Below, piece after piece: positions 26,128 to 45,722 of a stretch of 64,000 nucleotides of DNA; the stretch's first letter is position 1; each line of letters starts with the position of its first letter. Origin of the DNA: Sphingomonas sp. AP4-R1 (GTDB taxonomy: Bacteria; Pseudomonadota; Alphaproteobacteria; Sphingomonadales; Sphingomonadaceae). The stretch spans positions 4,230,001 through 4,294,000 of the forward strand of contig NZ_CP053346.1 in the NCBI RefSeq assembly GCF_013113735.1, given 5' to 3'. The notes under the pieces were generated by a model, which saw nothing but the letters and a program-made list of their open reading frames with translations, did no database searches and was not told the DNA's origin. Both the position numbers and the translations under genes were made by a program.

Positions 26128-27105
26128 CTACGCCAACCGCGCCGCAATCTGTGGCGGCAAGGGTGGCGCGAAGCCCGGCCGGCGCCAGGGCGCATCGTCC
26201 GGTTCGTCCGCATCGGGGATCGCGAATTTCACATAGCCGAAGAAGGTCGCGATCAGGCGCTCGCCCGGATCGATGATCGCGTTCCGCCCGTGCATGAAGC
26301 GCGTATTGTCCAGCATCACCGCGTCGCCCGGCTCCCACCGGACCGGCACCTTCAGCCGATCGCCCGTCGCCTTGATCGCCTGCAGCCACGCCTCGGGCAC
26401 GGGATGGCCGTCGTCCAGCACCGGGAAATCCGGCACCCCGTTGTTGAAGCGCGCGAACAACAGGAAATTGCCGAAAGCGGGCGCATCCACGAACATCGGC
26501 CTATGCAGCGCCGGCCGCGAGAAGACGCGCACCACCTCGTCATGCACGCGGTGGAACGAATAAGGGCAGCCCTGCCCCACGCGCGACACCAGTTCCGCAT
26601 CGCTGGGATCGGGCGTGCCGAGCCAGTAATCCAGCAGCTCCGGCCAGGTCGGCTTGATGTAGAGCAGCCGCCGCCACGCCAGCCCCTCCCGCACCGTATC
26701 GGGCAGCGCCTGCACCAGTTCCACGCCGTCGCACAACGTCGTCTCCCCGCCCCGGCTGGGCGCGGAGAGGCAGCAGAAGAAGGCGATGTCCGGCTTCCAC
26801 GGTTCGCGCGACAGCTCCGGGTGGAGCGAGAATTCGCGCACGCCGCCATCCACCGTATAGATATTCTGGTCGGGCTCGATCGGCTGGCGGCCGGGGCTCT
26901 CGTTGAACACGGCGGTCGAGCAGAATTGCCACGCGAAGCGGCGGAAGGCGCCCGCATCCACGCCGAAACCGCGGAAGACGATCGCGCCGTGCGCCTTGTA
27001 AAGGCGTTCGATCGTCGCGGGATCGAGGCTCAATATATCCTCGCCCTGATCCGCATCGATCAGGACATTGGGCCGCCCCGGGCGGGGCAGAGAGATGGTG
27101 GGCAT
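26128..27105 (-). CDS. TauD/TfdA-family Fe(II)/2-oxoglutarate dioxygenase
   Basis: The 325-residue protein opens with a TauD-like scaffold (YKAHGAIVFRGFGVDAGAFR). The iron site appears as HPE near residue 98 (H-x-E in FSLHPELSREPW) with the distal His in FMHGRNAI near 290 and an Arg after it (GERLIATFFGY). It should hydroxylate or oxidise a small molecule or a protein side chain; the substrate is not evident. It is divergent from a sulfotransferase-like gene with 49 bp between them, at the edge of the modification locus. Confidence 0.82.
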   Translation of the reverse strand: MPTISLPRPGRPNVLIDADQGEDILSLDPATIERLYKAHGAIVFRGFGVDAGAFRRFAWQFCSTAVFNESPGRQPIEPDQNIYTVDGGVREFSLHPELSREPWKPDIAFFCCLSAPSRGGETTLCDGVELVQALPDTVREGLAWRRLLYIKPTWPELLDYWLGTPDPSDAELVSRVGQGCPYSFHRVHDEVVRVFSRPALHRPMFVDAPAFGNFLLFARFNNGVPDFPVLDDGHPVPEAWLQAIKATGDRLKVPVRWEPGDAVMLDNTRFMHGRNAIIDPGERLIATFFGYVKFAIPDADEPDDAPWRRPGFAPPLPPQIAARLA

Positions 27106-27154
27106 GGCGAAACGGGGATAGCGGCAGACGCGCCCGCTAGCTATAGCCTGCGGC

Positions 27155-28123
27155 ATGGCGCTGACGATCGACGACCTTTTCGCCTCGCCCGACCATTATC
27201 TCCACAGTTTCGATGGCGATGCGGCCATCTTCGTGCCGATGGACCGGGCGGCCTATCATCGCTCCATCTTCCTCGACGGGCGCATCGCCCCGGCCGGCGA
27301 AGGCGAGATGCGGCTGCCGATCGGCGCGCTGCCCGCCGCGCCGCCCGCGCCGAAGCGCACCGGCTGGATCTTCCACATCGCGCATTGCGGATCGACCCTG
27401 CTGGCGCGCGCGCTGGATCGGCCGGAGGCGAACCTCGTCCTGCGCGAGCCGCTGGCGCTGCGGCAGGCGGCCGTCTCGCGCCACGAGCGGCTGATCGCGC
27501 TCGCCACGTCGACCATTTCGAAGCGCTACGATCCGGCCCTGCCGACGATCGTGAAGGCGAATGTGCCCGTCAATTTCCTGCTGCCCGAACTGGCCGCGCA
27601 AGACCCGCAGGCGCCCGCGATCCTGCTCTATCTCGGCCTCGACGATTATCTGGCCGCGATCCTGCGCAGCGACAATCACCGCGCCTGGCTCCGCAACGTG
27701 ACCGGCCAGCTCGTAGCGCATCTGGGCGATACGTCGACGCTGTCCGATCCCGAACGCGCGGCCTTGCTGTGGCTCGCCCAGTTGCGCGCCTTCGCCAGCA
27801 CGCTGGATCTCATGCCGAATGCGCGGTCGCTGGATGCCGAACTGTTCTTCGCGGACCCCACCCCCCTGTTGGCGGCGGCCGCGACCTGCCTCGGCGTCCC
27901 GATGATGGCCGATGACGCGGCCGCGATCACGCGGGGACCGCTTTTCTCCACCTATTCGAAGAACCCCACCGTCGCGTTCGACAATGACGCGCGCCTCGCC
28001 CGCAAGGCTGAACTGGCGCGTTCGATCGGGACGGAGCTGATCGCCGCGCACGACTGGATCGCCCGCAATGGTGGAGACGCGGCCGATGTGATCGCGAAAC
28101 TGGAAGGTCGGGCACTCTTGTAA
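27155..28123 (+). CDS. Sulfotransferase-like protein (divergent P-loop)
   Basis: The 322-residue protein has a sulfotransferase-type phosphosulfate loop, GWIFHIAHCGSTLLARALDR (near residues 70-90), and a possible 3'-phosphate region around YLAAILRSDNHR. Compared with the canonical PRSGTT loop it reads AHCGST. The C-terminal part (ADPTPLLAAAATCLGVPMMA to GPLFSTYSKNP) matches the gene at 29575, so the two are paralogues. Either it is a sulfotransferase of an unusual group or the fold is reused for another reaction. Confidence 0.72.
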   Translation: MALTIDDLFASPDHYLHSFDGDAAIFVPMDRAAYHRSIFLDGRIAPAGEGEMRLPIGALPAAPPAPKRTGWIFHIAHCGSTLLARALDRPEANLVLREPLALRQAAVSRHERLIALATSTISKRYDPALPTIVKANVPVNFLLPELAAQDPQAPAILLYLGLDDYLAAILRSDNHRAWLRNVTGQLVAHLGDTSTLSDPERAALLWLAQLRAFASTLDLMPNARSLDAELFFADPTPLLAAAATCLGVPMMADDAAAITRGPLFSTYSKNPTVAFDNDARLARKAELARSIGTELIAAHDWIARNGGDAADVIAKLEGRALL

Positions 28124-28226
28124 CCGTCGGCGCCTCGACGGATCGGCCCGCCCGCGCGGCGCTATCAGCTTTTCCGAATCGTCATTGCGAGCGCTCAGCG
28201 CCCGCCCACCGGCAAAAATCAGCCCT

Positions 28227-29519
28227 TCACTCCGAAAGGTCGAGGGCCTTGTTCCCGCTTTGCCCCGCCGCGAGCGCGACATCGTAGAAGCGTCGCAGCA
28301 GCGCGCGCTCGGTTTCGCGGATATACGGGTTCCACACGTCGAAGATCAGGATCGCGCGCAGCCGGTCCGATCGGTTCCACGCCTCATGCTCGATCGTGTC
28401 GTCGAAGGCCCAGGCCTCGCCCTCCACCCATTCGCGCGTTTCCCCGCCGACGCGGAAGCCGCAATCCGGCGGCACGATCAGCGGCAGATGGATAATCGTC
28501 CGCACGTTGCTCACGCCGGTATGCGCGGGCAGATGCGCGCCGGGCTTCAGCAGCGAGAAGAAGACGGTCGGCGTCCGCCCCGGCAGATCGGAGAGCGGCA
28601 GCGCCTCCACGGCGGCGGCGGTCTTCGGCGCCCGCGCGCAGGCGGCGTCGTTGCGCTTGCCGTCCTTCCACAGATGCAGCGCCCCCCAATCCATCTTGTG
28701 GTCGAGGGGAGTCCATTTGTTGGCCGGCGTGCCCGGCTCCATCGCGATATAGGGCGCGAAGCCAGCGCCGTCGTCCGCCAGCAGCATGTCCAGTTCGGCC
28801 CGGATCTCGTCCGTCTTCGCCTCGATCTGCTCCATCCACGGGAAATGCGCGCGATCGAAAAACTCGTCTGCGGGCAGGAACGGAAAATGCAGCCCCGCAC
28901 ATTCGTTCGCGAAGATCGGCCGGCGCCCCAGCGCATGATCGACCGCGGCCTTGAAACGCCGCGTTTCGCTGGATCCCAGCGGCTCCAGCAGGCCCGCCAG
29001 CCCACCGTCGATCGCCGCCGCGAAATCGTCATGATGGCGCGCCACGGCGGCGCTCGCATGATCCAGCATCGCCTCCAGCGCGGGCGTCCGCTCCTCGATC
29101 TCGTCCGCCATCGCCAGCACGCCCGACCAGTGCGTCACCGCGCCAGCCTCGTCGCCGATCCGCTCCAGCAGTTCGGCCATGCGCACGCGAGCCATGAAAT
29201 GGCGCTGGTCGATCTCCAGCGCCGCCGCCAGCGCCTTGCGTTCCCGGTCGTTCAGCCCCTGGGCACGTGCCGCCCGCGCGAGATTCAGCCACAGGTCCGG
29301 CGCGCGCGGATCGAGCACCACCGCACGCGAAAACAGCCCGGCCGCATCGCCATGCCGTCCTTCGGAGAGCGCATGGACGCCCAGCGCATTGAGCGCGACC
29401 GGATGATCCCCGCCCCGGGAAATCACTTCGCGAAACAGACGCACGGCCTCACCGCGCTGGCCATCCCGCTGCGCCTGCCTCGCTAGAGCGAGCAACTGTT
29501 GAACACCCCCTGCGTCCAT
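28227..29519 (-). CDS. TPR-containing aspartyl/asparaginyl beta-hydroxylase
   Basis: The 430-residue protein has TPR-like helices (about 1-190; AVRLFREVISRGGDHPVALN, AAGLFSRAVVLDPRAPDLWL) and a C-terminal Asp/Asn beta-hydroxylase domain (about 235-420). The 2-oxoglutarate/iron core is HTGVSNVRTIIHLPLIVPPD with later FDDTIEHEAWNRSDRLRAIL and IFDVWNPYI, closely matching human AspH. It should hydroxylate Asp or Asn in a peptide or protein. ATG 29519 is preferred because TTGTCT/TAACAT (29550-29555 and 29528-29533) could be its promoter; ATG 29549 is an alternative. Cytoplasmic: no signal peptide. Confidence 0.84.
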   Translation of the reverse strand: MDAGGVQQLLALARQAQRDGQRGEAVRLFREVISRGGDHPVALNALGVHALSEGRHGDAAGLFSRAVVLDPRAPDLWLNLARAARAQGLNDRERKALAAALEIDQRHFMARVRMAELLERIGDEAGAVTHWSGVLAMADEIEERTPALEAMLDHASAAVARHHDDFAAAIDGGLAGLLEPLGSSETRRFKAAVDHALGRRPIFANECAGLHFPFLPADEFFDRAHFPWMEQIEAKTDEIRAELDMLLADDGAGFAPYIAMEPGTPANKWTPLDHKMDWGALHLWKDGKRNDAACARAPKTAAAVEALPLSDLPGRTPTVFFSLLKPGAHLPAHTGVSNVRTIIHLPLIVPPDCGFRVGGETREWVEGEAWAFDDTIEHEAWNRSDRLRAILIFDVWNPYIRETERALLRRFYDVALAAGQSGNKALDLSE

Positions 29520-29574
29520 TGACAGTGATGTTACAGAAAGCCGGCCCATAGACAAATGCTCATCGCGCGGCGAC

Positions 29575-30630
29575 ATGAGGGCCATGTCGCAGGCAGGATC
29601 GTCGGCCCCCATCCCATCCATCGAAGTGGCCGCGCGCGATCCGGAATGGATCGCGCATCGCTATGATCCGGGCCACGATGCGGTTCACCTGCTGCCGGTG
29701 CCGCGCGCCCAGCAGCGCAAGGCGACCTTTCTGACGGACGAATATCTGCCGGCGGGCCTGCAGCCGTTGATCGTGCGCCGCCGGGATGCGGCGGGCGCGC
29801 TGCCCGCCCCCGCACCGATCCACTTCGTGTTCCACTCCGCCTTCTGCTGCTCGACGGTCGTCGCCAACGCCTTCGATCTGCGCGGCCGCTCGATGGGGCT
29901 GAAGGAGCCGGTCATCCTCAACGATCTGATCGGCTGGCGTCGGCGCGGCGGCGAAGGGCCGGACATGGCCGAGGTGCTGGATGACGCGCTGCGCCTGCTC
30001 GCCCGCCCCTTCGCGCAGGGCGAGAGCATCGTCGTGAAGCCCTCCAACGCGATCAACGCGCTGATCGCGCCCATCCTCACGCTCCGTCCCCAGGCGCAGG
30101 CGCTGCTGCTCCACGCGCCGCTGCGCACCTATCTCGGTTCGATCGCGCGCAAGGGGCTGGACGGGCGCCTGTGGGTGCGGACCCTCCTGCTCGGGCTGCT
30201 GGACGACAGGCTGGTCGATCTTGGCTTCTCGCCGCGCGATCATCTCGGCCAGACGGACCTGCAGGTCGCGGCGATCGGCTGGCTCGCGCAGCACGCCTTG
30301 TTCGCGCGCACCGTGCAGGCCTTCGGCCCCGGCCGCGTCCGCACGCTCGACAGCGCGACGTTGATGGCCGATCCGGCGCGCGCCATGGCCGCGCTGGCCA
30401 CGCATTTCGGCATCCCCTTTTCCGATTCGGAGCTGGCGGCCATCGTCTCCGGCCCCGCTTTCACCAGCCATTCCAAGTTCGGCACCACCTTCGGCGCGAT
30501 CGAGCGCGCGAACGAGGAAGAAACCGGCGTCGCGCTTCATGCCGACGAAATCGACAAGGTGATCGCCTGGACACAGGCCGTCGCCGATGCCGCGGGCATT
30601 TCCATGGTCGCGCCCGCCCCCCTCTTCTAG
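29575..30630 (+). CDS. Sulfotransferase-like protein (divergent P-loop), paralogue
   Basis: The 351-residue protein has IHFVFHSAFCCSTVVANAFD near residues 82-101 in place of the canonical sulfotransferase loop, and a C-terminal part (ADPARAMAALATHFGIPFSD, SGPAFTSHSKFGTTF) that parallels the gene at 27155. The core resembles Stf0-type folds, but the loop has lost the usual Arg-Ser-Gly. It is divergent from one beta-hydroxylase gene and ends 11 bp before the next. ATG 29575 or 29584 could be the start. Confidence 0.7.
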   Translation: MRAMSQAGSSAPIPSIEVAARDPEWIAHRYDPGHDAVHLLPVPRAQQRKATFLTDEYLPAGLQPLIVRRRDAAGALPAPAPIHFVFHSAFCCSTVVANAFDLRGRSMGLKEPVILNDLIGWRRRGGEGPDMAEVLDDALRLLARPFAQGESIVVKPSNAINALIAPILTLRPQAQALLLHAPLRTYLGSIARKGLDGRLWVRTLLLGLLDDRLVDLGFSPRDHLGQTDLQVAAIGWLAQHALFARTVQAFGPGRVRTLDSATLMADPARAMAALATHFGIPFSDSELAAIVSGPAFTSHSKFGTTFGAIERANEEETGVALHADEIDKVIAWTQAVADAAGISMVAPAPLF

Positions 30631-30641
30631 GATCACGGAAT

Positions 30642-31802
30642 ATGAAGGAAGATCTTCAGCGCATGGGCGAAATGGGGCTCGCCGCCCTTTCGGCGGGCGA
30701 TGCCGTGCAGGCCCGGCGCATCTTCGAGCGGATCGAGTCCGAGGGGCGCGGCACGCACCAGCTCCGCCTGCTGCTCGCGCAGGCCTGCACGATGCTGGGC
30801 GACGCGCCCGCCGCGCACCGTGTGCTGGATCGCGTGCTGCAGGACGAGCCCGCCAATCTCTACGCCAATCTGATGCGCGGCGATCTGCTGCACACGGCGG
30901 GCGATCCGCGCGCGGCCGTTTCCTGGTATCAGGCCGCCTTGATGCAGGCGCCGCGCGCGGGCGCGCTGCCGCAGGATCTGATCGATGCCCTCCACGAAGC
31001 CGAGCGCAAGGTGGAGGCGGTCGGCCGGACCTTCGCGGATCACATGACCGCGCAGCTCGCGGCGGCGGGTGTATCGGGGGCGGTTCATCCGCGCTTCGCC
31101 GAGGCGCTCGATCTGCTCACCGGCAGGGCCGAGGTGCAGCTCCAGCAGCCGACCAACTTCTATTATCCCGGGCTTCCCCAGCGCGCCTTCTTCGATCGCG
31201 AGGAATTCGATTGGGTCGCCGCCCTGGAGGCGAAGACGCCGGAGATCGTCGCGGAGCTGGAGGCGCTCGTCGCCAGCGATCCGTTACGCGAGCCCTATGT
31301 CGTGCCCGAGCCCGGCCGCCCCGCCAAGGCGCACCCCCTGCTCGGCGACACGCGCTGGAGCGCGTTCCACCTGTTCCGCGAAGGCGCGCCGATCGAGGAG
31401 AATGTCGCGCGCTGCCCGAAGACGTTCGCCGCGCTGGCCGATCTGCCGATGCCGCGCATCACGGGACGCTCGCCCATGGCGATGTTCTCGGTGCTGCGCC
31501 CGCACACGCACATCCCGCCGCACAACGGCATGATCAACACGCGGCTCATCTGCCATCTGCCGCTGATCGTGCCCGAGGGCTGCCGCCTGCGCGTGGGCAA
31601 TCACACCCGCGCCGTCGAGGCCGGGAAGATGATGATCTTCGACGATTCGGTCCGGCACGAGGCCTGGAACGACAGCGACGAGACGCGCATCGTGCTGATC
31701 TTCGAGATCTGGCGCCCCGAACTCACCGAGGCCGAGCGCACCGCGCTGACGACGCTGTTCGGCACGATCGGCGTCTATTCGGGAGCGGGCAACGGCGCCT
31801 GA
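30642..31802 (+). CDS. TPR-containing aspartyl/asparaginyl beta-hydroxylase, second copy
   Basis: The 386-residue protein repeats the layout of the gene at 28227: TPR-like helices (about 1-130; AVQARRIFERIESEGRGTHQ, AAVSWYQAALMQAPRAGALP), a linker with RAFFDREEFDWVAALEAKTP, and a beta-hydroxylase core (HNGMINTRLICHLPLIVPEG, FDDSVRHEAWNDSDETRIVL, IFEIWRPEL). The two copies are clearly homologous but well diverged, so they may act on different sites. It is cotranscribed with the sulfotransferase-like gene 11 bp upstream. Confidence 0.84.
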   Translation: MKEDLQRMGEMGLAALSAGDAVQARRIFERIESEGRGTHQLRLLLAQACTMLGDAPAAHRVLDRVLQDEPANLYANLMRGDLLHTAGDPRAAVSWYQAALMQAPRAGALPQDLIDALHEAERKVEAVGRTFADHMTAQLAAAGVSGAVHPRFAEALDLLTGRAEVQLQQPTNFYYPGLPQRAFFDREEFDWVAALEAKTPEIVAELEALVASDPLREPYVVPEPGRPAKAHPLLGDTRWSAFHLFREGAPIEENVARCPKTFAALADLPMPRITGRSPMAMFSVLRPHTHIPPHNGMINTRLICHLPLIVPEGCRLRVGNHTRAVEAGKMMIFDDSVRHEAWNDSDETRIVLIFEIWRPELTEAERTALTTLFGTIGVYSGAGNGA

Positions 31803-31846
31803 GGCGCGGCGGAATATCGGCTTGTCCGGAGTTCAGCCCGCCTGAC

Positions 31847-31878
31847 GGGATGCGCGCCGCGTGATCGGCGCGCATCCC
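31847..31878. terminator. Terminator-like hairpin between converging genes
   Basis: A perfect 13-bp stem (GGGATGCGCGCCG and complement, loop CGTGAT) lies between the beta-hydroxylase stop and the small-protein gene that converges on it. A second nested pair, CTGACGGG/CCCGTCAG, can form. The T-run is weak. Confidence 0.65.
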
Positions 31879-31884
31879 TTCCCG

Positions 31885-32145
31885 TCAGAATCCGCAGCTT
31901 CCGCCCTCGGCGACCTGGCAGGCCGCCGCCGTGTTATAGCCGGCGCGCATATTGTCGCGCTCGTGATCCCATTCCGCCTTCGTCTTGCAGACGCGCTTGC
32001 CCTTCACGAGCGAGCCCGTCTCCAGGAATTTCTTGCAGATCATCGTGTCGCGCGCATCGGCGGACTTTTCCGATTTGTCGCCGCCCGGCGCGGCCGACAT
32101 GTCACCCGCGGCAAGAGCCAGAGCCAACAGAAGTGAAACGACCAT
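31885..32145 (-). CDS. Small secreted cysteine protein, tandem paralogue 1
   Basis: The 86-residue protein has a short signal peptide (VVSLLLALALAAGDMSAAP) and the core MICKKFLETGSLVKGKRVCK followed by TKAEWDHERDNMRAGYN, with four cysteines in all. The core is shared with the two next genes. I know no function for this family, which seems restricted to alphaproteobacteria such as sphingomonads. GGGAGG precedes the ATG. It sits in the gap of the hydroxylase/sulfotransferase locus. Confidence 0.78.
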   Translation of the reverse strand: MVVSLLLALALAAGDMSAAPGGDKSEKSADARDTMICKKFLETGSLVKGKRVCKTKAEWDHERDNMRAGYNTAAACQVAEGGSCGF

Positions 32146-32253
32146 CGTGACCTCCCGCTCGTCTTGAGCGGGGCCATTCTATCATCTTCCCGTCTTCCGG
32201 AAAGCCGGCTTTTCACAGGGGACGACTTTCCGCCGCACCCCCTGCGCGAGTAA

Positions 32254-32281
32254 AGCGCGCCTTATCGAGGCAAGGCGCGCT
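32254..32281 (-). terminator. Terminator of the second small-protein gene
   Basis: A perfect 10-bp stem (AGCGCGCCTT and complement) with an 8-nt loop lies 11 bp after the stop of the gene at 32292. Confidence 0.7.
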
Positions 32282-32291
32282 CCCTGTCCGT

Positions 32292-32543
32292 TCAGAAGCA
32301 GCTCGACGTGGCCTGGCAAGATGCCGCATTGTTATAACCGGCGCGCATATTGTCGCGGTCATGATCCCATTCCGCCTTCGTCTTGCAGACGCGCTTGCCC
32401 TTCACGAGCGAACCCGTCTCCAGGAACTTCTTGCAGATCATCGTGTCCCGCGTGTCGGCGGACTTTTCCATCTTGTCACGGGCCGGCGCGGTTTGCGGTT
32501 CGCCGGCAGCAAGAGCCAGAACCAGCAGAAGTGAAGCGATCAT
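32292..32543 (-). CDS. Small secreted cysteine protein, tandem paralogue 2
   Basis: The 83-residue protein has a signal peptide (IASLLLVLALAAGEPQTAPA) and the same core as paralogue 1, differing in few residues (RDTMICKKFLETGSLVKGKR, then TKAEWDHDRDNMRAGYNNAA). Four cysteines are conserved. The upstream DNA (GTCACGATG and the first codons) also matches paralogue 1, showing a recent tandem duplication. Confidence 0.78.
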   Translation of the reverse strand: MIASLLLVLALAAGEPQTAPARDKMEKSADTRDTMICKKFLETGSLVKGKRVCKTKAEWDHDRDNMRAGYNNAASCQATSSCF

Positions 32544-32687
32544 CGTGACTTTCCCATCGTCTTGAATGGCCGCACTATATCAGCTGGAAACCTTCCAGAA
32601 ACCCGGCTTCTCAGTGGATGACACCGTTCGTCGCAAGATCGGCGGCGCGGGCGCCACCTTCTTGTCGCCCATATCCGGCGGCGAGGA

Positions 32688-32960
32688 TCAGTTGCAGGTG
32701 ATCCCGGACGCCATGCTGGCGCAGGCGACGGACTGGCCCAGGCCACGCGCCACATTCCCCTGAACGGTCAGCCGCTGGCGCTCCCATCCCGCCTTGGTCA
32801 TGCACACGCGCTTGCCCTTCACGAGCGAGCCCGTCTCGATGAACTTCTTGCAGATCATCCGGTCGCCGGCATCCCCCGCCTTTTCCGGCTTGTCGGTGGC
32901 CGGCAGGCCTTGCAGATCACCCGCGGCAAGCGCCAAAAGCAGAAGGAAGGAAGCGTTCAT
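32688..32960 (-). CDS. Small secreted cysteine protein, tandem paralogue 3
   Basis: The 90-residue protein keeps the signal peptide (NASFLLLLALAAGDLQGLPA) and core RMICKKFIETGSLVKGKRVC but has diverged after it (TKAGWERQRLTVQGNVARGL) and has a different C-terminal end. It is the most distant of the three copies and thus probably the oldest duplicate. Confidence 0.76.
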   Translation of the reverse strand: MNASFLLLLALAAGDLQGLPATDKPEKAGDAGDRMICKKFIETGSLVKGKRVCMTKAGWERQRLTVQGNVARGLGQSVACASMASGITCN

Positions 32961-33034
32961 CGTCTTTGTCCCCAACAGTCGCCGCTCACCTAGCTCAAGC
33001 GAATTTGCCGCAGAAGAGGCCCGCTTTTTAAATC

Positions 33035-34690
33035 ATGTCGAATCGGATCAATAAATCGTCCCGCGCCGCCAAGGCGAAGCAGAGCGCCGTTTCGCGCGGG
33101 CGGGTCGAGCAGGCGCTAGCCGCCGGCGATATTGCGGGCGCGGCCTCCCTGGCCGAAGCCGCGCTGGCGGCGGGACAGATGGATCCGATGTTCCTGAACC
33201 TCGCCGCGTGGCGGAACGAGGAGATCGGCAACTTCCCCGAAGCCTATCGGCTGTTGCAGCGCGCACTCGTCATCTCGCCCGGCGACATCACGATCCTGGG
33301 TGGCATCGCGGCGGTCCTCCGCAAGGATGACCGGCCGAACGAGGCGATCGAGGTGATCGATGACGTGGTGGCCAAAGCCCCCGGCTATGCCGCCGCCTGG
33401 CTGGAGCGCGGCTACATCCTCGATGCGCTGCGCGACGAGGAGGCCGCCGCCGAAAGCTATGGCCGTGCCGCCGCGCTCGATCCCGGCATGGCCCCCGCGC
33501 TCGGCAAGCTCGCCGATCGCGCCGCCAAGCGCGGCGAGACGGATGCGGCACAGGCTTATGCCCGCCGCGCCTTCGCCACCCATCCGCTCGAGCCCGCCGC
33601 CACCTTCGCGATCGCGACGATGGCGATCGAGGCCCGCGACGGCGCGGCCGCCGAACGGCGCCTGCGCGCGCTGCTCGATCATCCGCTCGACGGCGACGAT
33701 CGCACGCGCGCGCTCACCCTGCTGGGCGACGCGCTCGACAAGCAGGATCGCACCGCCGAGGCCTTCGCCGCGTGGGAAGCGGCGCAGCGCAACTTCGCCG
33801 ATCGTTATCGCGCCCGGCTCGGCCCCGTCGACGGCCGCCCCTCGCACCGCGCCTTCATCGATCGCATCGCAGCCCAGGTCGCCGCGACCACCGCGCCGCC
33901 GCGCCGTTATCCGGACACGGATCTGCCGCAGGCGGCCGCCGCGCATGTGTTCCTGCTCGGCTATCCCCGCTCGGGCACGACCCTGGTGGAAAATGTCCTC
34001 GCCAGCGCGCCCGGCGTGGCGGCGCTCGAGGAACGGCCGACGCTGGTCGATACGGATGAGATCGTCCTCGCCAATGACGGATCTATGCCCGATCTCGACA
34101 CGCTCGGTCCCGCCTTCGTCGATCGGCTGCGCGCGGGCTATTGGCGGCGCGTCACGGACATGGCCGGCGACGTCACCGGCAAGACCTTCGTCGACATGAA
34201 TCCGTTCAACGGCTTCAAGCTGCCGATGATCGCGCGCCTGTTTCCGGACGCCCGCATCGTCGTGATGCGCCGCGATCCGCGCGACATCGCGCTGAGTTGC
34301 TTCCGCATCAATTTCACGCCCAGCACCGCCACCTATTCGTTCAGCGATCTGGCCGAGACGGCCCGCCATTATGATGCGCTGACCGGGCTGGTGGAATTGT
34401 GCCGGGAGCGTTTCCCCCTCGCCTTCCACGATCTGCGTTATGACCGGCTGGTGTCCGATTTCGAGCCGACGGTGCGCGCGCTGGCGGCCTTCGTCGGCAT
34501 AAAGTGGACCGACGATTTCATGACCTTCGATCGCACCGCGCAATCGCGCGGCGTGCGCACCGCGAGCGCCACGCAGGTCCGTCGCGGCCTGTTCGACGGT
34601 CGCGGCCAGTGGCGCCGCTACGAGGCGCAGCTCGCCCCCGCTCTGCCGATCCTGGAGCCATGGGTGAAGCGCTTCGGCTTCGAGGGCTGA
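33035..34690 (+). CDS. TPR-containing sulfotransferase
   Basis: The 551-residue protein has an N-terminal half of TPR helices (about 25-260; AYRLLQRALVISPGDITILG, EAAAESYGRAAALDPGMAPA) and a C-terminal sulfotransferase domain (about 300-540). The phosphosulfate loop FLLGYPRSGTTLVENVLASA and the 3'-phosphate motif IVVMRRDPRDIALSCFRINF are canonical, unlike in the two divergent relatives upstream. TPR-sulfotransferases of this kind are thought to act on protein tyrosines or similar acceptors. No signal peptide is visible. It lies between the small-protein genes and the TonB receptor. Confidence 0.88.
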   Translation: MSNRINKSSRAAKAKQSAVSRGRVEQALAAGDIAGAASLAEAALAAGQMDPMFLNLAAWRNEEIGNFPEAYRLLQRALVISPGDITILGGIAAVLRKDDRPNEAIEVIDDVVAKAPGYAAAWLERGYILDALRDEEAAAESYGRAAALDPGMAPALGKLADRAAKRGETDAAQAYARRAFATHPLEPAATFAIATMAIEARDGAAAERRLRALLDHPLDGDDRTRALTLLGDALDKQDRTAEAFAAWEAAQRNFADRYRARLGPVDGRPSHRAFIDRIAAQVAATTAPPRRYPDTDLPQAAAAHVFLLGYPRSGTTLVENVLASAPGVAALEERPTLVDTDEIVLANDGSMPDLDTLGPAFVDRLRAGYWRRVTDMAGDVTGKTFVDMNPFNGFKLPMIARLFPDARIVVMRRDPRDIALSCFRINFTPSTATYSFSDLAETARHYDALTGLVELCRERFPLAFHDLRYDRLVSDFEPTVRALAAFVGIKWTDDFMTFDRTAQSRGVRTASATQVRRGLFDGRGQWRRYEAQLAPALPILEPWVKRFGFEG

Positions 34691-34743
34691 GCGCGGCTCC
34701 GAGAGCTCGCTGACCGTCTACGTCGCGGACGCCACCGGATAGC

Positions 34744-34873
34744 CCTCTCCCGTTTTCACGGGAGAGGGTTGGGTGAGGGTCTTCTTCTCGGCCGGGCATC
34801 GTCGATCCAGAAGACCTTCACCTCCCATCGCCTGCGGCGACGGCGCCCTCCTCTCCCGCGAAAGCGGGAGAGG
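34744..34873. repeat. Dispersed inverted repeat, family G
   Basis: The left arm CCTCTCCCGTTTTCACGGGA and right arm CTCTCCCGCGAAAGCGGGAG are each hairpins and also face each other. It separates the TPR-sulfotransferase and the TonB receptor. Confidence 0.8.
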
Positions 34874-34946
34874 ATCTGAGAGGCTGCACCCGATCGACAG
34901 GCGCTTCACCCGGATATCCCGGACTTTCCCGCCATCTCGTTCGCCC

Positions 34947-34979
34947 AAAACAAAAGGGGGCGGGCCGAAGCCCACCCCC
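34947..34979 (-). terminator. Terminator of the TonB-receptor gene
   Basis: On the minus strand a 10-bp stem (GGGGGTGGGC/GCCCGCCCCC, one G-T pair) with a TTCG tetraloop is followed by TTTTGTTTT, 27 bp after the receptor stop. Confidence 0.93.
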
Positions 34980-35005
34980 TCGATAGTTTCCCGAAGGAAC
35001 CCGGC

Positions 35006-38000
35006 TCAGAACTTGAGCTTGGCGCCCATCAGGAAGCGACGGCCCAGCGCGTCGTAGGTCGACGGATAGGTGTTGCCGCTGTTGAACGAGGTCGAACCGA
35101 TCGTGTTGCCGACGATCGGCGGAGCCTTGTCGAGCAGGTTGGTCACGGTCAGCGTCACGTCCAGATTGTCCGTGACACCGACGCGGAACGCCAGGTCGAA
35201 ATAGTCGTACGCCTTGATGTGACCGAAATTGTAGGTCCGGCCGGCCAGTGCGCCGTTCGAAGCCGCATTGCCCGCGATCGTGCCGTTGAAGGTGGTGGTG
35301 CCATCCTCGGCATTCATCGGGCTGATGTGGCGCCACAGGAGCGACACGTCGAGCGCGCCGCGGCTGAGGGTCGTGCGCTGCTGGAAGGTGAACTTCGGCT
35401 GCAGCGAACCGGCCGACGAGCTCGGACCGGCCGACGCGGGCGAACCGCAGCTCGTGCTGTAGACGCCGACGCAGTCGCGAACGATCGAAACCGGCGTCGC
35501 CTGGAACTCCGCCCGACGGGTGTAGTTGCCCTGCATGCCGAGATCGAGCTTCGCGAAGCCGAGATCACGACGATAGTTGAAGCCGAAGTCGATACCGTCG
35601 GTCAGAACCTGGCCCGCGTTGGACGCGACGAAGTTCAGGCCGCCCGTGGTCGCCGGATCGCCATCGAGACCGCCGGTGACCGGGTTGCGCCGGATCGCGG
35701 TGCAGAGCGGGTTCGAAGCCGCGGCTGCCGAGATGCCCGCACCGGTACGGTTACCGAAGCACAGGTTGATCGCGTCATCCGGGGTCGGCTGCGAAATCGC
35801 GTCCTTGATCTTGATGTGGTAGTAATCGACCGTGATCGACAGGCCGGGGATCAGACCCTTCGGCTGCAGCACGATACCCAGCGTGTAGGAGTCCGACTTC
35901 TCGGGACGGAGACCCAGGTTGCCGGAGGTCGTCGCGGCCGCCTGAGCGCCGGTCGGGACCAGGATGCGGCCGATCGAATTGGCAGGAGCACCCTGCGCGA
36001 GACAGACCGCCCGCAGGTTCGCATTCGTGGTCGGCGCGGCGCCGGCGCACGGATCGTAGCTGAGGTTGGTCAGGCCGACGACCGACGGCGCGAACAGCTC
36101 GGTGATGTTCGGCGCACGAACCGCGCGCTGATATTCACCACGGAACTTGATGCCGCTGATCGGTTCCCAGGTCAGACCGCCCTTGTAGGTGGTCGTCTTG
36201 AAGCTCGGCTTGCCCGGAGCGTCGACGCTGTACTTGGAGTAACGCAGGCCGCCTTCGACGGTCAGGCTCTCGAAGCCCGGCTTGTCGGAGACGAGCGGAG
36301 CGATGACTTCGCTATACCCTTCGACGACGTCATATCCGCCGTTGAAGTTGGTGATCGCGCCGCCGGCGCCGCCCAGTTCGCCCGCCGTCTGCGACAGCGA
36401 GTCCGCCGACTGCGAAGCGGTGTACTTGCGATACTCGGTGCCCGCCGCGAAGCTGATCGGGTCCGAAGCCCATGGGCTGGTGACGCCGAAGTCGCCGGTC
36501 AGAAGCGCGCGGGCCTGGGCCAGCGAAGCCTTCTGCTGCGAGAACGAGTTGCCGGTCAGATACGGGATCTGGTTGGCGGCGATCGAACCCGTCGGGCCGA
36601 ACAGGTTGAGCGGAACGCAGCCCGTGCCCGCCGTCAGAGGGGCGCCGTTCGGGGCGTTGCCAAGGCAGCTCGTGGTGTTGGTGGCGTACACGGCCGAGCG
36701 GACGCGCGACAGCAGCACATAGCCCGACTGGGTCTGGCGGTTCTCGGACTCGCCGTACGAACCGTTGATGTCGAGGTTGATGCTGTTGGTGATGTCGAAC
36801 TTCGCACCGGCGCGATAGTCGAACATCGTCGTCACATATTCGGAGACGCGCGGGCCGACTTCCGTCGTACGACGGCCGACAGTCGTGTTGAAGGTGCGGA
36901 AGTTCGGATCCGTCGGGCTCGTCGCCAGAGACGCCGCGTTGCACTGCGCGGTGGTGAGGCCGTTGCCGGCGCACATCGCGGCGCGGAGGGCCGGCGTCAG
37001 ATACGGGTTGCTGTAGGGGATCGTCAACTGCGAACCGAAGACGCCCGACGGCGCGATGATCGTGTTGACGGTGTTCTTCGAGAACGTGCCGCGCGTGTAG
37101 ACCTGGATGCCGTCCGCCACGTCATAGTGGCCGGCACCGTAGATGTTGAAGCGCTTAAACGGCGTCTGGAAGATGTTGTAGGGCGCGAAGTTGAACGCGT
37201 CGGACGGCGCCGCGGCCGTGCCGCGCGAACGATAGGCGCGAACCGCACCGGTGTTCTGGTCGATCACCGAATAAGCGGAGCCGCCCGTGGTGAAGCGCGA
37301 CGGGGTCGTCGTGCCCGAACCGCCGGCGAAGCCCGAGGTCGAGGTGTACTGGTTCTGCGAGAAGGTGCGCGCGCCCTGATAGACCGGCTTCGCCTTCTGG
37401 TAGCCGATCGAGAGGACCGCATTGCCCTTGCCGTCGTCGAAGTTCGCGCCGACCGTCAGATCGCCGCGGAAGACGTTGCCGTCGCCGCGCTGCGTGATCT
37501 GGTTGGAGACGTTCGCCTCGAAGCCCGAGAAATCCTGGCGGGTGATGAAGTTCAGCACGCCCGACACGGCGTCCGCGCCGTAGGTCGTGGCGGCGCCGCC
37601 GGTCAGCACGTCCGCGCGCTCGATCAGCGCGAGCGGGATGTTGTTGAGATCGGTACGGCCGGTCGCGCTCGACGGAACGATGCGGTTGCCGTCGATCAGG
37701 ACGACGTTGCGGAAGTTGCCCAGGCCGCGAAGGTCGGCATAGGCCGCGCCGCCATTGCCGTTGTTCACGGCGGAGCCGATCGACGGCGTCACGCCCGGCA
37801 GATCGCGGACCAGTTCTTCAGCGGTGTTGCGCTGGCGGAGCGCGATTTCCTCGGAGCCGATCACTGTGACCGGAACGGACGACACCAGGTTCGGGTTACG
37901 AACGAGGGTGCCGGTGACGACGATGTCGCTCGACGAGGTTTCGGCCGACGTGTCGGTCGAGGCCGTCTGCGCGAACGCCGGATTGGCGATAGCGGCTGCG

Positions 38001-38050
38001 CCGACCAACAGGGTCGATGCCAGCAGGTTGTTACGGTAGCGAATGGTCAT
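35006..38050 (-). CDS. TonB-dependent outer-membrane receptor
   Basis: The 1014-residue protein has a signal peptide (to about residue 27, ending NPAFAQ), a TonB-box-like stretch (DIVVTGTLVRNPN), a plug domain (about 45-165; VRDLPGVTPSIG, LRGLGNFRNVVLIDGNRIVP, LIERADVLTGGAATTYGADA) and a large 22-strand barrel ending in Phe. It imports an unknown ligand. The size and the long loops with scattered Cys pairs suit a bulky ligand such as a glycan or peptide. Its neighbours are a TPR-sulfotransferase and modification enzymes, not sugar-catabolic genes. ATG 38050 has GGGGACC upstream. Confidence 0.93.
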   Translation of the reverse strand: MTIRYRNNLLASTLLVGAAAIANPAFAQTASTDTSAETSSSDIVVTGTLVRNPNLVSSVPVTVIGSEEIALRQRNTAEELVRDLPGVTPSIGSAVNNGNGGAAYADLRGLGNFRNVVLIDGNRIVPSSATGRTDLNNIPLALIERADVLTGGAATTYGADAVSGVLNFITRQDFSGFEANVSNQITQRGDGNVFRGDLTVGANFDDGKGNAVLSIGYQKAKPVYQGARTFSQNQYTSTSGFAGGSGTTTPSRFTTGGSAYSVIDQNTGAVRAYRSRGTAAAPSDAFNFAPYNIFQTPFKRFNIYGAGHYDVADGIQVYTRGTFSKNTVNTIIAPSGVFGSQLTIPYSNPYLTPALRAAMCAGNGLTTAQCNAASLATSPTDPNFRTFNTTVGRRTTEVGPRVSEYVTTMFDYRAGAKFDITNSINLDINGSYGESENRQTQSGYVLLSRVRSAVYATNTTSCLGNAPNGAPLTAGTGCVPLNLFGPTGSIAANQIPYLTGNSFSQQKASLAQARALLTGDFGVTSPWASDPISFAAGTEYRKYTASQSADSLSQTAGELGGAGGAITNFNGGYDVVEGYSEVIAPLVSDKPGFESLTVEGGLRYSKYSVDAPGKPSFKTTTYKGGLTWEPISGIKFRGEYQRAVRAPNITELFAPSVVGLTNLSYDPCAGAAPTTNANLRAVCLAQGAPANSIGRILVPTGAQAAATTSGNLGLRPEKSDSYTLGIVLQPKGLIPGLSITVDYYHIKIKDAISQPTPDDAINLCFGNRTGAGISAAAASNPLCTAIRRNPVTGGLDGDPATTGGLNFVASNAGQVLTDGIDFGFNYRRDLGFAKLDLGMQGNYTRRAEFQATPVSIVRDCVGVYSTSCGSPASAGPSSSAGSLQPKFTFQQRTTLSRGALDVSLLWRHISPMNAEDGTTTFNGTIAGNAASNGALAGRTYNFGHIKAYDYFDLAFRVGVTDNLDVTLTVTNLLDKAPPIVGNTIGSTSFNSGNTYPSTYDALGRRFLMGAKLKF

Positions 38051-38172
38051 ATTGGTCCCCTTTAGCAGCCACCGGTTCGGCTTTGGCCGCTCCAATTCGA
38101 CATGGCAGTGCACGACCTCAAAGGCCGTCACATGGGACAATGGCTAATATGAAAACTTTGCGACGGCCATGA

Positions 38173-38209
38173 CCACATGTTCGCGACCGCAATATTACTG
38201 CCACATGTT
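38173..38209. promoter_or_regulatory. Direct repeat CCACATGTT upstream of the TonB receptor
   Basis: CCACATGTT occurs at 38173-38181 and 38201-38209, 28 bp apart (start to start), in the gap between the divergent receptor and the secreted protein gene. A related CACATGG is at 38129. It could be a regulator site; no known motif is recognised. Confidence 0.3.
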
Positions 38210-38291
38210 ACATGGCTGCCACACTCGGCGATCTTGCAGACATGCGCGCGGCGGCCTAGCCCTGCGGCACCTGCTGCGAGAGAGGCATCTG

Positions 38292-38822
38292 ATGAGGACG
38301 GGGTTCACGATCGCGCTCGGCGCGGCGCTGTTTTGCGCGGTTTCCGCTTCGGCGGCGGAGCCGAAGTCGGCGGATCGGGTGTTGCGCGATTTCGGCACGT
38401 GCCGTTCGACGCCCGATGCCGCCGCCCGCCTCGCCTGTTTCGAAAAGACGTTCGATTCCTTCGAACAGGCGGTGAAGTCCAAGGAAGTCACGATCGTCGA
38501 CAAGGCCGACATGCGGCAGGCCAAGCGCTCGCTGTTCGGCTTCACCTTGCCGAAGCTCGATCTGTTCAACGGCGACGGCGCGAAAGCCGACAAGGCCGAC
38601 GAGTTCAGCGAGATCAACACCACCGTCGCCTCGGCGCGCGCCGTCGACAATGGCCGGGCCGAAATCACGCTGGCGGACGAATCCGGTGCCGTCTGGCGCA
38701 CCACCGATCCGATGAAGTGGCCGCCCAGGCCCGGCGACAAGATCCGCATCCGCGAAGCCTCGCTCGGCAGCTACTTCCTGTCGATGGGCGGCCGCTCCTA
38801 TCGCGGCCTGCGCGTGCGCTGA
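38292..38822 (+). CDS. Secreted protein of unknown function
   Basis: The 176-residue protein has a signal peptide (MRTGFTIALGAALFCAVSAS) and a CRSTPDAAARLACFEKTFDS stretch like the ARLACYD motif of several secreted alphaproteobacterial proteins, including VasI-like ones. The C-terminal half (EITLADESGAVWRTTDPMKW, KIRIREASLGSYFLSMGG) looks like a small beta-barrel. It is divergent from the TonB receptor. ATG 38292 begins the signal peptide. Confidence 0.72.
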   Translation: MRTGFTIALGAALFCAVSASAAEPKSADRVLRDFGTCRSTPDAAARLACFEKTFDSFEQAVKSKEVTIVDKADMRQAKRSLFGFTLPKLDLFNGDGAKADKADEFSEINTTVASARAVDNGRAEITLADESGAVWRTTDPMKWPPRPGDKIRIREASLGSYFLSMGGRSYRGLRVR

Positions 38823-41939: not shown

Positions 41940-43409
41940 TCAGACGAAGCGCACATTCGTCCGCGTGCGGCGGCGCATCGCGCCACCCACCGCGCCGAAG
42001 CCGACGATGAACAAAGCCCACGAAGCGGGCTCCGGCACGTCGGAGGCGGTCGGCGCGAAGGAGATCCCGCGGAACACCGAGTTGATCGGCGAGGTCGCCA
42101 GCGTCGTGAAGCTCTGGCCCGCCGCCTTGGTCGTCGCGGTCAGCGTATCGCTGATGCCGTAGAGATAGGTCGTCTCGACGCCGGTCACGGTGTTGCTGGT
42201 CGCATAGAGCTCCACCGTATCGCCCACGACCACGCCCGTCAGGCCGAACAGGCCCGTCACGCCCGAAGCCGAGCCGTTGCCGACCAGATTGAGACCGGCC
42301 GCGATCGTGTAGGCCAGGCTCCAGCTGCCGTTCGAAAAGACCCACTTTTGCAGGCCACCATTGCCGAGCGACGAACCGTTGCTGTCGTTGGTGACCGAGT
42401 CATTCTTCGGCATGCCGCTGTCCGCCACATAGAGCGTGGTGGGATTGGCGAAGAAGAAGGCCTCCGGGCTCAGATTGACGGTCGTGCCGATCGTGTTGAG
42501 GCCGTTGCTATTCGCCGCCGTGACCGTCAGCTTGCCCGTGCCGCCATTGTTGCCGAAGCCCGGCAGCATCGTGGGGCCGTCGCCATTGTTGGCGAGGGAG
42601 GTCGGCAGCGAGCCGATCTGCCCCAGCGTGCCGATGAAGTCGCGGTTCGACTTCGAACCCTGCTTGCTGTCGACGGAGGTGAGGAGCTGGCCGTTATAGA
42701 CCTGCACGTCGCGCGTATCCTGCGCGGCGGTCTTGCCGCTCGTGTCGAGACCCGTCACCGCCGTGGCCGTACCGCCCGAAACGTAGAAGACGCCGCCCGT
42801 CTTGTCGCCGGACTGGCCCTGCCCGGAGATGTAATAGCTGCTGCCGTCCACCGTATAGGCGGCGCGGGGGTTCTGGCCGTTGTAGACGTTATAGAGCGCG
42901 GTCGAGCTGTTGACCGAGCCCATCGCATCGATCGACACCACCACGCGCGGCACCGCCGTATAGGCCTGTCCCGTGAGGCTGCCCGACTGGGCCAGCGCGG
43001 TCGACTTGGTCGGGTCGGTGGTCAGCGTGCCGTACGCGGTCGGGTTCGCGTTGAAGGCGGCGGCGTTGACGCCATAGCCCATCAGGGTCAGCGACTTGCC
43101 GTCGCCGGACAGGTGCAGAAAGCCCTCGGACGACGAGCCATATTCGCCCGACACGCCCAGATTGGCGCCGGACGTGGTCTGCGGCAGCACCAGCGAATTG
43201 ACGTAGGAGGCGCTCGACGTGCCCGTCTGCGCGAACTGCATCAGCGTGATCGGCGCGGCCTGGTTGGTCGTATAGCTGCCGGAGGTGGCGCCATAGACCC
43301 CATTGCCTTCCACCAGCACGACGAGATTGCCGGTGTCGAAGGTCGCCGCGAAGGCCGGCACGGAAGCAAAGAGCAGCGACGCGAACGCCGCCTTCGTCAT
43401 CAAACGCAT
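41940..43409 (-). CDS. Secreted PEPxxWA-CTERM surface protein
   Basis: The 489-residue protein has a signal peptide (to about residue 20, TKAAFASLLFASVPAFA), a Gly/Ser/Thr-rich body that looks beta-propeller-like (repeated GSxT and NGD turns), and the C-terminal sorting tail PEPASWALFIVGFGAVGGAM RRR. Such tails are recognised and cleaved by exosortase, usually in strains making extracellular polysaccharide. No exosortase gene is in the window. ATG 43409 starts the signal peptide; the 526 bp upstream hold only repeats. Confidence 0.85.
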   Translation of the reverse strand: MRLMTKAAFASLLFASVPAFAATFDTGNLVVLVEGNGVYGATSGSYTTNQAAPITLMQFAQTGTSSASYVNSLVLPQTTSGANLGVSGEYGSSSEGFLHLSGDGKSLTLMGYGVNAAAFNANPTAYGTLTTDPTKSTALAQSGSLTGQAYTAVPRVVVSIDAMGSVNSSTALYNVYNGQNPRAAYTVDGSSYYISGQGQSGDKTGGVFYVSGGTATAVTGLDTSGKTAAQDTRDVQVYNGQLLTSVDSKQGSKSNRDFIGTLGQIGSLPTSLANNGDGPTMLPGFGNNGGTGKLTVTAANSNGLNTIGTTVNLSPEAFFFANPTTLYVADSGMPKNDSVTNDSNGSSLGNGGLQKWVFSNGSWSLAYTIAAGLNLVGNGSASGVTGLFGLTGVVVGDTVELYATSNTVTGVETTYLYGISDTLTATTKAAGQSFTTLATSPINSVFRGISFAPTASDVPEPASWALFIVGFGAVGGAMRRRTRTNVRFV

Positions 43410-43571
43410 ATCATTCCCCAAGGAGATGGCCGCGTCGAACGACGCCCCCACGCTTAGGGTTAACAATTGGTTATGACGATCCAGTGACATATTTCGTCAC
43501 ATGACCGCAGCATGACATCGGCTCGGCCGGGTCAGTATCAGCGATTGGAAACGGCAGCTTCCCGAGACATC

Positions 43572-43935: not shown

Positions 43936-45609
43936 TTACTTGGCGGCAGGCGCCTTCGCCGCCTTCGGCGCATAGAGATCGCCGAAGAAGTCGCCCTTGT
44001 ACCACAAGGGCGCCAGATCGCCGTCCGCCATCGCCTCGGTGATGCGATAATTGGCCTCGGCGAAGCGCGCACCCGAAGCCCAGTCGATCGGCTGGTTCAT
44101 GTCGTCGCCCGGATGGTGATAGGCGCCACCGAGGAACTTGCCCCACTGCGCCTCGCCGCCATTGGCGAAGCCGGTCGCCAGGAACACCGCCGGCACGCCC
44201 TGCTGCACGAACCGATAATGATCGGAGCGGACGAAGATCGTCTCCTCCGGCATCGGATCGGGCGAGAGCTTGAGCCCCATCGGCGCCACCGCTTTCGCGG
44301 TAATCGGGCCGAGCGTGGAGTGATCCGATCCGAACGCGATCACGTCGGTAAACTTGTACAGCAGCAGCGGCATGTCGATGTCGACATTGCCCACGATATG
44401 CGCGGGCGGCACGGTCGGGTTGCGCGCATAATATTCGGCGCCCAGCAGCCCCTTCTCCTCGCCGGTCGAGGCGAGGAAGATCACCGAACGGCGCGGCTTT
44501 TCGGGTGCTTCCACCATCGCGCGCGCCACCTCCAGCATCGTCGCGATGCCGGCGGCATTGTCGAGCGCGCCATTGTTGATCCGGTCCGTGGCGGGCGTGT
44601 CGCCCGGTTTCTCCGGCGCGATGCCGATATGGTCGAGATGCGCCGAGAGGACGACATAATCCTCCTTCAGCTTCGGATCGGTGCCCGGCAGCATCGCCAC
44701 CACATTGGGGCTGCTGATCTTCGTGACGACCGCGTCCTGCGTCAGCTTCGCGCTGGTCTTGAGCGCGAAGCCCTTGGGCCGCGCCCCATCGACCGACGCT
44801 TCCTGCAGCACCGTCGCCAGCGGCTTCGCGCCGCCCGCGAACAGCGCCTCGGCCGCCGCCCCGTTGGCGAAGGCCGAAAGCTTGATCCCCGGCGCCTCGC
44901 GATAGGGCACGCCGTCCTTGCCGATCCACGTCACGGTCACGCCGTCCGCGAAATGCAGGCGCTGGCTGAACGGGCGCCGCTTGGCCGAGGCGAGCGTGTC
45001 GATCGCGATGATGCCGACCGCGCCATGCTTCTCGGCCGCCGATCCCTTTTCGTCGGAGGCATAGGCCGCGATCTCGCTCGGCATGCCCTTGGGGAAGCCC
45101 GTCAGCATCACCACGATCTTTCCGCGCACGTCGAGCCCGCGATAATCGTCGATGCCGAGCTTCGGCACGTCGAGCCCATAGCCCACGAACACCAGCCCGC
45201 CCGAAACCTCGCCCTTCGGCATCGCCGGATTGAGGTTGACGATCACGTCGTCCAGATGCTCCCACGTCCGTGCACCTTTCGCGCCGGTCACGGTCAGCGT
45301 GCCCTTGGTCGTCCCGTGCGCGGCCTGCGCGAAACCGATCCGCTGATACCAGCCGCCCGCATCGCCCGCCGGCTTCAGACCCAGCGCCTCGAAGCGGCTG
45401 GCGACATAGCGCGCGGCGATCTCATGACCGCGGCTGCCGATGTCGCGCCCTTCCAGCAGATCGTCGGCGAGGAACGCCACGTGCGCGCGGAACGCCTCGG
45501 GCGTGAAGGTCGGCTCCGCCGCGCCTGCCGCAGCCACCGCCGTCGCGCATGCCATCCCCATCAGCGCGGCGACGCCCGCACCCCATTTCAAACCCTTGCG
45601 CTGCATCAT
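43936..45609 (-). CDS. Secreted M28-family zinc metallopeptidase
   Basis: The 557-residue protein has a signal peptide (to about residue 30), a PA-like insert domain and the M28 catalytic domain: VVLSAHLDHIG (His-x-Asp) near 300, NNGALDNAAGIATMLEVARA, FLASTGEEKGLLGAEYYARN (catalytic and metal Glu), and VDIDMPLLL. It is an aminopeptidase-like exported enzyme. ATG 45609 has AAAGGATC upstream. It is divergent from the M16 protease gene. Confidence 0.9.
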   Translation of the reverse strand: MMQRKGLKWGAGVAALMGMACATAVAAAGAAEPTFTPEAFRAHVAFLADDLLEGRDIGSRGHEIAARYVASRFEALGLKPAGDAGGWYQRIGFAQAAHGTTKGTLTVTGAKGARTWEHLDDVIVNLNPAMPKGEVSGGLVFVGYGLDVPKLGIDDYRGLDVRGKIVVMLTGFPKGMPSEIAAYASDEKGSAAEKHGAVGIIAIDTLASAKRRPFSQRLHFADGVTVTWIGKDGVPYREAPGIKLSAFANGAAAEALFAGGAKPLATVLQEASVDGARPKGFALKTSAKLTQDAVVTKISSPNVVAMLPGTDPKLKEDYVVLSAHLDHIGIAPEKPGDTPATDRINNGALDNAAGIATMLEVARAMVEAPEKPRRSVIFLASTGEEKGLLGAEYYARNPTVPPAHIVGNVDIDMPLLLYKFTDVIAFGSDHSTLGPITAKAVAPMGLKLSPDPMPEETIFVRSDHYRFVQQGVPAVFLATGFANGGEAQWGKFLGGAYHHPGDDMNQPIDWASGARFAEANYRITEAMADGDLAPLWYKGDFFGDLYAPKAAKAPAAK

Positions 45610-45722
45610 GATCCTTTCGTTTGCGCGCAGATTGGAGCGGGGTGCGCCGATGGGCAAGCGCTTGCGGCCCCTGTCCGCACCGCTTACGACCGGACCTTTC
45701 CCGCCCGGCAGAAGGCCTTCTG

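Follow-up and report, generated by a model that had tools for sequence, protein, structure and literature searches.

Excerpts of the published work on Caulobacter state that the TonB receptor CciT strictly needs the cytoplasmic dioxygenase CciO for function, that the pair is co-conserved (PMC12004947) and that CciT is still found in membranes without CciO (PMC12004947, PMC12004943). The locus described here, from Sphingomonas sp. AP4-R1, resembles this pair, as well as Fiu-YbiX and PiuA-PiuC, by gene arrangement, with a TonB-dependent receptor adjoining Fe(II)/2-oxoglutarate (2OG) dioxygenases. However, the system as described in those excerpts has one oxygenase and no sulfotransferase, whereas in loci of the AP4-R1 type the oxygenases belong to other families and can number as many as three, as can the sulfotransferase-like proteins, and small secreted cysteine proteins (S proteins) are present as well. 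CciT-CciO is the nearest precedent. The locus lies in a window (the whole stretch of DNA analysed, 64,000 nucleotides) at positions 4,230,001-4,294,000 of contig NZ_CP053346.1 (GCF_013113735.1; genome 5.27 Mb). It is a real, conserved variant of the receptor-oxygenase partnership, and the pairing of oxygenase with sulfotransferase is its new element. The genes, in window coordinates, are as follows.

26128..27156, minus strand: TauD/TfdA-type Fe(II)/2OG oxygenase (TauD; PF02668, E 4.9e-31), likely start Met18 at 27105
27155..28123, plus strand: ST2, divergent sulfotransferase-like protein, paralogous to ST1 and in head-to-head orientation with TauD
28227..29621, minus strand: AspH1, tetratricopeptide repeat (TPR) and Asp/Asn beta-hydroxylase domain (PF05118, 8.6e-42), likely start Met35 at 29519
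29575..30630, plus strand: ST1, divergent protein of predicted sulfotransferase fold with a sub-threshold Sulfotransfer_3 match
30642..31802, plus strand: AspH2, second TPR and Asp/Asn beta-hydroxylase protein (PF05118 match from the whole-genome search)
31885..32145, minus strand: S1, small secreted Cys protein (family alignment; signal-like N-terminus by eye)
32292..32543, minus strand: S2, small secreted Cys protein (predicted model; signal-like N-terminus by eye)
32688..32960, minus strand: S3, small secreted Cys protein (family alignment; signal-like N-terminus by eye)
33035..34690, plus strand: TPR-sulfotransferase with intact PRSGTT loop (PF13469, 5.1e-31)
35006..38050, minus strand: TonB-dependent receptor of 1014 aa (PF00593 and Plug PF07715), ATG at 38050
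38169..38822, plus strand: g38, small secreted protein divergent from the receptor and its neighbour in relatives, likely start 38292

The genes that the sequence-only reading had listed between 26128 and 38050 were all present at those positions, as shown by Pfam matches, open reading frames (ORFs) and a whole-genome search. The locus is bordered by tol genes at one end and by clpA at the other. Both PF05118 matches of the genome, its sole Sulfotransfer_3 match and both ST1/ST2-type matches fell inside the locus, together with three of the four S matches; the same genome had 102 TonB-barrel matches. The gene set is more than a chance grouping because other genera hold the same set.

A profile scan of named genomes produced 324 ST1 relatives, from which the best 80 were kept. 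Sixty of these loci had at least 9 kb on both sides (uncut loci) and 20 were set aside at contig ends. The closest named locus was that of Sphingomonas natans, and the genera represented include Sphingomonas, Sphingobium, Novosphingobium, Polymorphobacter, Sphingorhabdus and Kordiimonas. Among cultured environmental sphingomonads, Sphingomonas echinoides (L071) and Sphingobium boeckii (L080) carry the cluster. The receptor was present in 54/60 uncut loci, AspH in 53 and S in 52 (48 by filter, in addition to the variant-motif loci L122, L125, L129 and L130), followed by g38 (47), clpA (34), the TPR-sulfotransferase (25), TauD (14) and ST2 (14). Of the 80 loci, 16 held TauD or ST2, and every one of these had both genes head to head, with matches -1 to 101 bases apart; in L208, outside the 80-locus set, the sequence ends just after TauD. 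No more than 600 bases separated AspH from ST1 in 57 of 63 loci, and the two were head to head in 51 of 63. Overall, the gene set is a conserved unit with the TonB receptor, and of all partners the receptor accompanies the enzymes most constantly, with S second. The earlier prediction of a modification locus had named unconserved gene order in related genomes as one observation that would overturn it; the order was found to be conserved.

Adjacency to clpA changed 8 times on the ST1 tree (61 rows), and most of the set persisted at loci away from clpA: the 26 ST1 loci without clpA held AspH in 23, S in 23 and the receptor in 20. For the six without a receptor, each genome had a receptor orthologue elsewhere with 66-70% identity. 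In all six genomes where receptor and enzymes are separated, g38 adjoined the receptor. More widely, g38 was seen to follow the receptor in many relatives, even where the receptor had moved.

The region 3' of clpA was then a second sample, with up to 13 kb taken in 81 genomes with a clpA match of at least 1472 bits; it omits the contig-end cases G066, G085, G121 and G150, a further clpA in G086 and the window, and some flanks were shorter than 13 kb, which lowers the counts. A receptor was present in 56/81 flanks. Oxygenases were found in 34/56 flanks with a receptor compared to 1/25 without, sulfotransferases in 28/56 compared to 3/25, and S in 20/56 compared to 0/25. Oxygenase and sulfotransferase occurred together in 24 flanks, oxygenase alone in 11, sulfotransferase alone in 7 and neither in 39. 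Fisher p values for these four comparisons, which ignore relatedness, were 6e-7, 1e-3, 2e-4 and 2e-6, respectively. The oxygenase families swapped around the receptor (AspH, TPR-2OG-FeII_Oxy_5, 2OG-FeII_Oxy_4, 2OG-FeII_Oxy_3 and TauD). AspH and ST1 were both present in 10 flanks, AspH only in 3, ST1 only in 8 and neither in 60; the oxygenase/sulfotransferase pairing is carried by AspH/ST1 and TauD/ST2. Four enzyme-bearing flanks had no counted receptor, and among them L217, L238 and L265 held an Oar-type receptor-like protein and L221 had a receptor further along.

These flanks also bear on the explanation that the clpA side is a hot spot which collects unrelated envelope and modification genes with no functional link. 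The flanks do vary widely and clpA was near 34/60 ST1 loci, in line with such a hot spot, but the set stayed largely together at loci without clpA, was retained when split over two loci, and within the clpA flanks the enzymes tracked the receptors, which makes this explanation highly improbable.

As separate observations, the clpA 3' flank (L216-L275 and others) was a hot spot in which TonB and Oar-type receptors sit with a varying choice of oxygenases and sulfotransferases, and M19 and S9 peptidases were present in two clpA-flank loci (L173 and L163). TPR-sulfotransferase-like genes adjoined Oar-type proteins (CarboxypepD_reg) in L217, L238, L240, L265 and L275, and four of these five Oar-type proteins had an outer membrane protein (OMP) barrel match. 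The Oar-type protein with the TPR-sulfotransferase is possibly a second receptor-sulfotransferase pairing.

The catalytic motifs of AspH, TauD and the TPR-sulfotransferase are intact as judged from their alignments. AspH1 scored 143.1 bits against PF05118 (cut-off 22.6) and matched the solved Asp/Asn beta-hydroxylase structures 5apa (4.4e-29) and 5jqy (2.7e-28), while AspH2 scored 152.0 bits in the genome search and matched 5apa with an E value of 7.9e-29; both structures are, we take it, those of human AspH. Residues H294, H305, F333-D335, H339 and R349 of AspH2 were conserved in 97% or more of 75 sequences, and the His/Arg positions among them presumably include the iron-binding residues. 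With PF05118 scores above the curated cut-off and the His/Arg motif present, both proteins belong to the AspH family, and Asp/Asn hydroxylation is their predicted activity. In TauD, residues M18, H112, E114, H289 and R300 were invariant in 10 sequences, the window's own included.

The TPR-sulfotransferase scored 109.1 bits against PF13469 (cut-off 27), and its relatives by sequence include the protein-tyrosine sulfotransferases (TPST). The loop P311-T316 (PRSGTT) and residues R412, R413, D414, R416 and S421 were invariant in 23 sequences; we assume that they serve in binding 3'-phosphoadenosine 5'-phosphosulfate (PAPS). It thus carries a Sulfotransfer_3 domain with PAPS-type motifs and is a predicted member of that family. 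ST1 matched Sulfotransfer_3 under the threshold (14.8 bits against 27) and ST2 had no Pfam match; both fell outside the class as defined by the canonical PAPS loop and the Pfam cut-off, with HSAFCCST and HIAHCGST occupying the loop position instead of PRSGTT. By fold, both were placed among the sulfotransferases, ST1 from its predicted model, which was nearest to TPST, and ST2 as its paralogue. E111 and K155 of ST1 were invariant and presumably correspond to catalytic residues of TPST. The ST1 profile had no significant match among solved structures, its hhalign comparison with the TPR-sulfotransferase gave no convincing profile match (prob. 1.1), and a PHROGs search produced no match for ST1, ST2, S2 or the g38 ORF.

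Human AspH targets epidermal growth factor (EGF) domains. AspH1 and AspH2 share with it a TPR region and the same catalytic domain with the active-site motif kept, but differ in having no signal or membrane anchor by eye. The likeness to TPST lies in the sequence of the TPR-sulfotransferase and in the predicted fold of ST1, whereas the canonical PRSGTT loop is missing from ST1 and ST2. The oxygenases and sulfotransferases are presumably cytoplasmic, as no signal sequence was seen by eye. The lack of a visible signal sequence in the enzyme pairs, the TPR domains and the kinship to AspH and TPST suggest that the hydroxyl and sulfate groups go onto a polypeptide of the receptor system before export.

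Overall, we read the locus, with a probability of roughly 45%, as a receptor-coupled modification unit in which an oxygenase hydroxylates and a paired sulfotransferase sulfates a polypeptide of the receptor system before export. The cytoplasmic Fe(II)/2OG oxygenases would add a hydroxyl group to a partner of the TonB-dependent receptor beside them; each has its paired sulfotransferase (ST2 with TauD, ST1 with AspH, in addition to the TPR-sulfotransferase), which would next sulfate this partner. The likeliest target would be a polypeptide altered before export, with the receptor and the small secreted S proteins as the two candidates. The enzymes probably add hydroxyl and sulfate groups to the receptor's partner; a stepwise order of the two activities, a polypeptide as target and the choice of that polypeptide are our inferences. 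A fuller proposal, that interchangeable oxygenase/sulfotransferase pairs of sphingomonad-type bacteria hydroxylate and then sulfate the TonB receptor (or S) in the cytoplasm before export and so tune ligand or phage recognition at the cell surface, is rather unlikely as a whole; if true, it would to our knowledge be without precedent for an outer-membrane receptor.

Several results weigh against the receptor-coupled modification unit. Neighbouring genes of the cluster alternate in strand, so the locus is not one operon. The sulfate donor use of ST1 is only putative, given its non-canonical loop. The named solved relatives of TauD were small-molecule or uncharacterised oxygenases, and the best NCBIfam name for AspH1 was the lipid hydroxylase OlsC, far under its cut-off. 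The distant ST2-like proteins L045 and L047 had no TauD recognised nearby, and Oxy4 or Oxy5 alone showed no link with a sulfotransferase in the clpA flanks (6/12 and 9/19). Sixteen of the 56 receptor flanks were counted without enzyme or S, although two of these (L250 and L260) hold a 2OG-FeII_Oxy_3 gene. Trait-pair tests on trees, one of which was built from about 100 ClpA residues, had between 1 and 4 independent pairs with support among the results listed, too few to reach 0.05. Receptor columns were scanned for Asp/Asn, Tyr and Ser/Thr residues common with enzymes and rare without; nine columns differed, but the 12 control receptors were other clades and three of their flanks (L226, L235 and L274) held other oxygenases.

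A serious rival is that the enzymes make or degrade the small-molecule ligand of the receptor, such as a metallophore or nutrient that bears hydroxyl and sulfate groups, in the way proposed for CciO/PiuC. It is serious because the studied relative CciT-CciO is interpreted via the ligand by its authors, in the excerpts of their reports (PMC12004947, PMC12004943). However, a Pfam scan of the cluster genes and some neighbours found no nonribosomal peptide synthetase (NRPS), polyketide synthase (PKS) or siderophore-synthetase domain, and the TPR domains and AspH/TPST kinship favour protein substrates. Ligand chemistry is a real possibility on this evidence, if a doubtful one.

The S proteins were surveyed more widely in 119 family genomes of at least 90% completeness, in which S was present in 79 and the ST1 profile in 45. 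The predicted model of S2 (mean pLDDT 71.8) has a beta-hairpin with Cys37 and Cys53 followed by a helix, and a protein search with S2 found 30 relatives, the named ones all hypothetical or uncharacterised. Twelve genomes with a seemingly S-less locus were searched: one (L122) has S locally, six (L077, L112, L119, L135, L136 and L142) have it elsewhere, and five (L096, L102, L128, L134 and L144) had no S match. Four of the unmatched genomes have ST1 and a receptor (Pseudokordiimonas L096, Kordiimonas L128, a Kordiimonadaceae metagenome-assembled genome (MAG), L134, and an alphaproteobacterial MAG, L102). In the clpA flanks S was locally absent from 18 of the 34 with receptor and oxygenase. S as a general substrate was weakened by this absence from many enzyme loci. 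Of the modification locus first proposed from the sequence, the modification-type enzyme set conserved with the receptor stood, while a role of the small Cys proteins as general substrate was not supported in that form.

Methanobactin clusters contain a small Cys peptide, an oxygenase, a sulfotransferase and a TonB receptor, all of which have counterparts here. By analogy, S could be precursors akin to ribosomally synthesised and post-translationally modified peptides (RiPPs) that are modified by AspH, TauD and the sulfotransferases, exported, and re-imported by the receptor, perhaps with metal. S was within 5 kb of 18/35 strong ST1 matches (more than 250 bits) in the 119 genomes; a C-terminal Cys pair in S went with the TPR-sulfotransferase, occurring in 19/25 uncut loci with that gene compared to 2/35 without; and Sphingomonas jatrophae, with an S-less cluster, retains a four-Cys S on another contig. 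These three findings fit precursors. However, the Cys-pair trait changed only twice on the tree, so that few evolutionary events stand behind the link, which counts against the receptor-coupled unit as well. In addition to its absence from the flanks and genomes above, S stood beside receptors without a recognised enzyme (L053 and L160), and no receptor was recognised near 14 of 26 S matches away from ST1, namely four of L048-L053 (L051 and L053 being by a receptor) and 10 of the 20 best-scoring further ones (contig-end G060 omitted). In the family alignment the stretch from one invariant Cys to the other lacked any conserved Asp, Asn or Tyr, and S3 contains no Tyr. The S proteins differ from methanobactin peptides in their signal-like N-terminus; no MbnB/MbnC-type domain was found among the Pfam matches, and no known RiPP maturase when the cluster proteins, AspH2 outside the set, were scanned with Pfam and NCBIfam. 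RiPP-like precursors are therefore improbable.

Within the collection searched, the literature search found no paper combining TonB-dependent receptor, sulfotransferase, beta-hydroxylase and Sphingomonas, and no description of such loci in titles or abstract openings. It also found no paper joining TonB-dependent, tryptophan halogenase and SapC; the sequence-only reading had likened this set to TonB-receptor loci with tryptophan halogenase, SapC and cupin genes. Table 2, in the excerpt of PMC10040529, places an Aspartyl beta-hydroxylase and two sulfotransferases at cluster numbers near-consecutive to lasso B2, PqqD and asparagine synthase, which hints that such enzymes also join peptide clusters. 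A sulfotransferase or hydroxylase is unmentioned in the excerpt of a paper on copper TonB transporters (PMC12914433).

Other features of the window were an ARAGORN call of tRNA-Gly (ccc) at 33731-33813 (minus strand), inside the TPR-sulfotransferase gene on the opposite strand and probably false, and a protein carrying a PEP-CTERM sorting motif at 41940-43490 (minus strand). M28 and M16 peptidase genes were present at 43936-48623, and relatives of these recur beside the clpA locus in several genomes.

Why an outer-membrane receptor needs a cytoplasmic dioxygenase is a question raised, in its excerpted text, by the CciT-CciO work (PMC12004947). The locus of AP4-R1 is a richer natural version of that system, in which a single receptor is surrounded by several oxygenases and their matching sulfotransferases, and it could allow modification of the receptor to be told from chemistry on its ligand.

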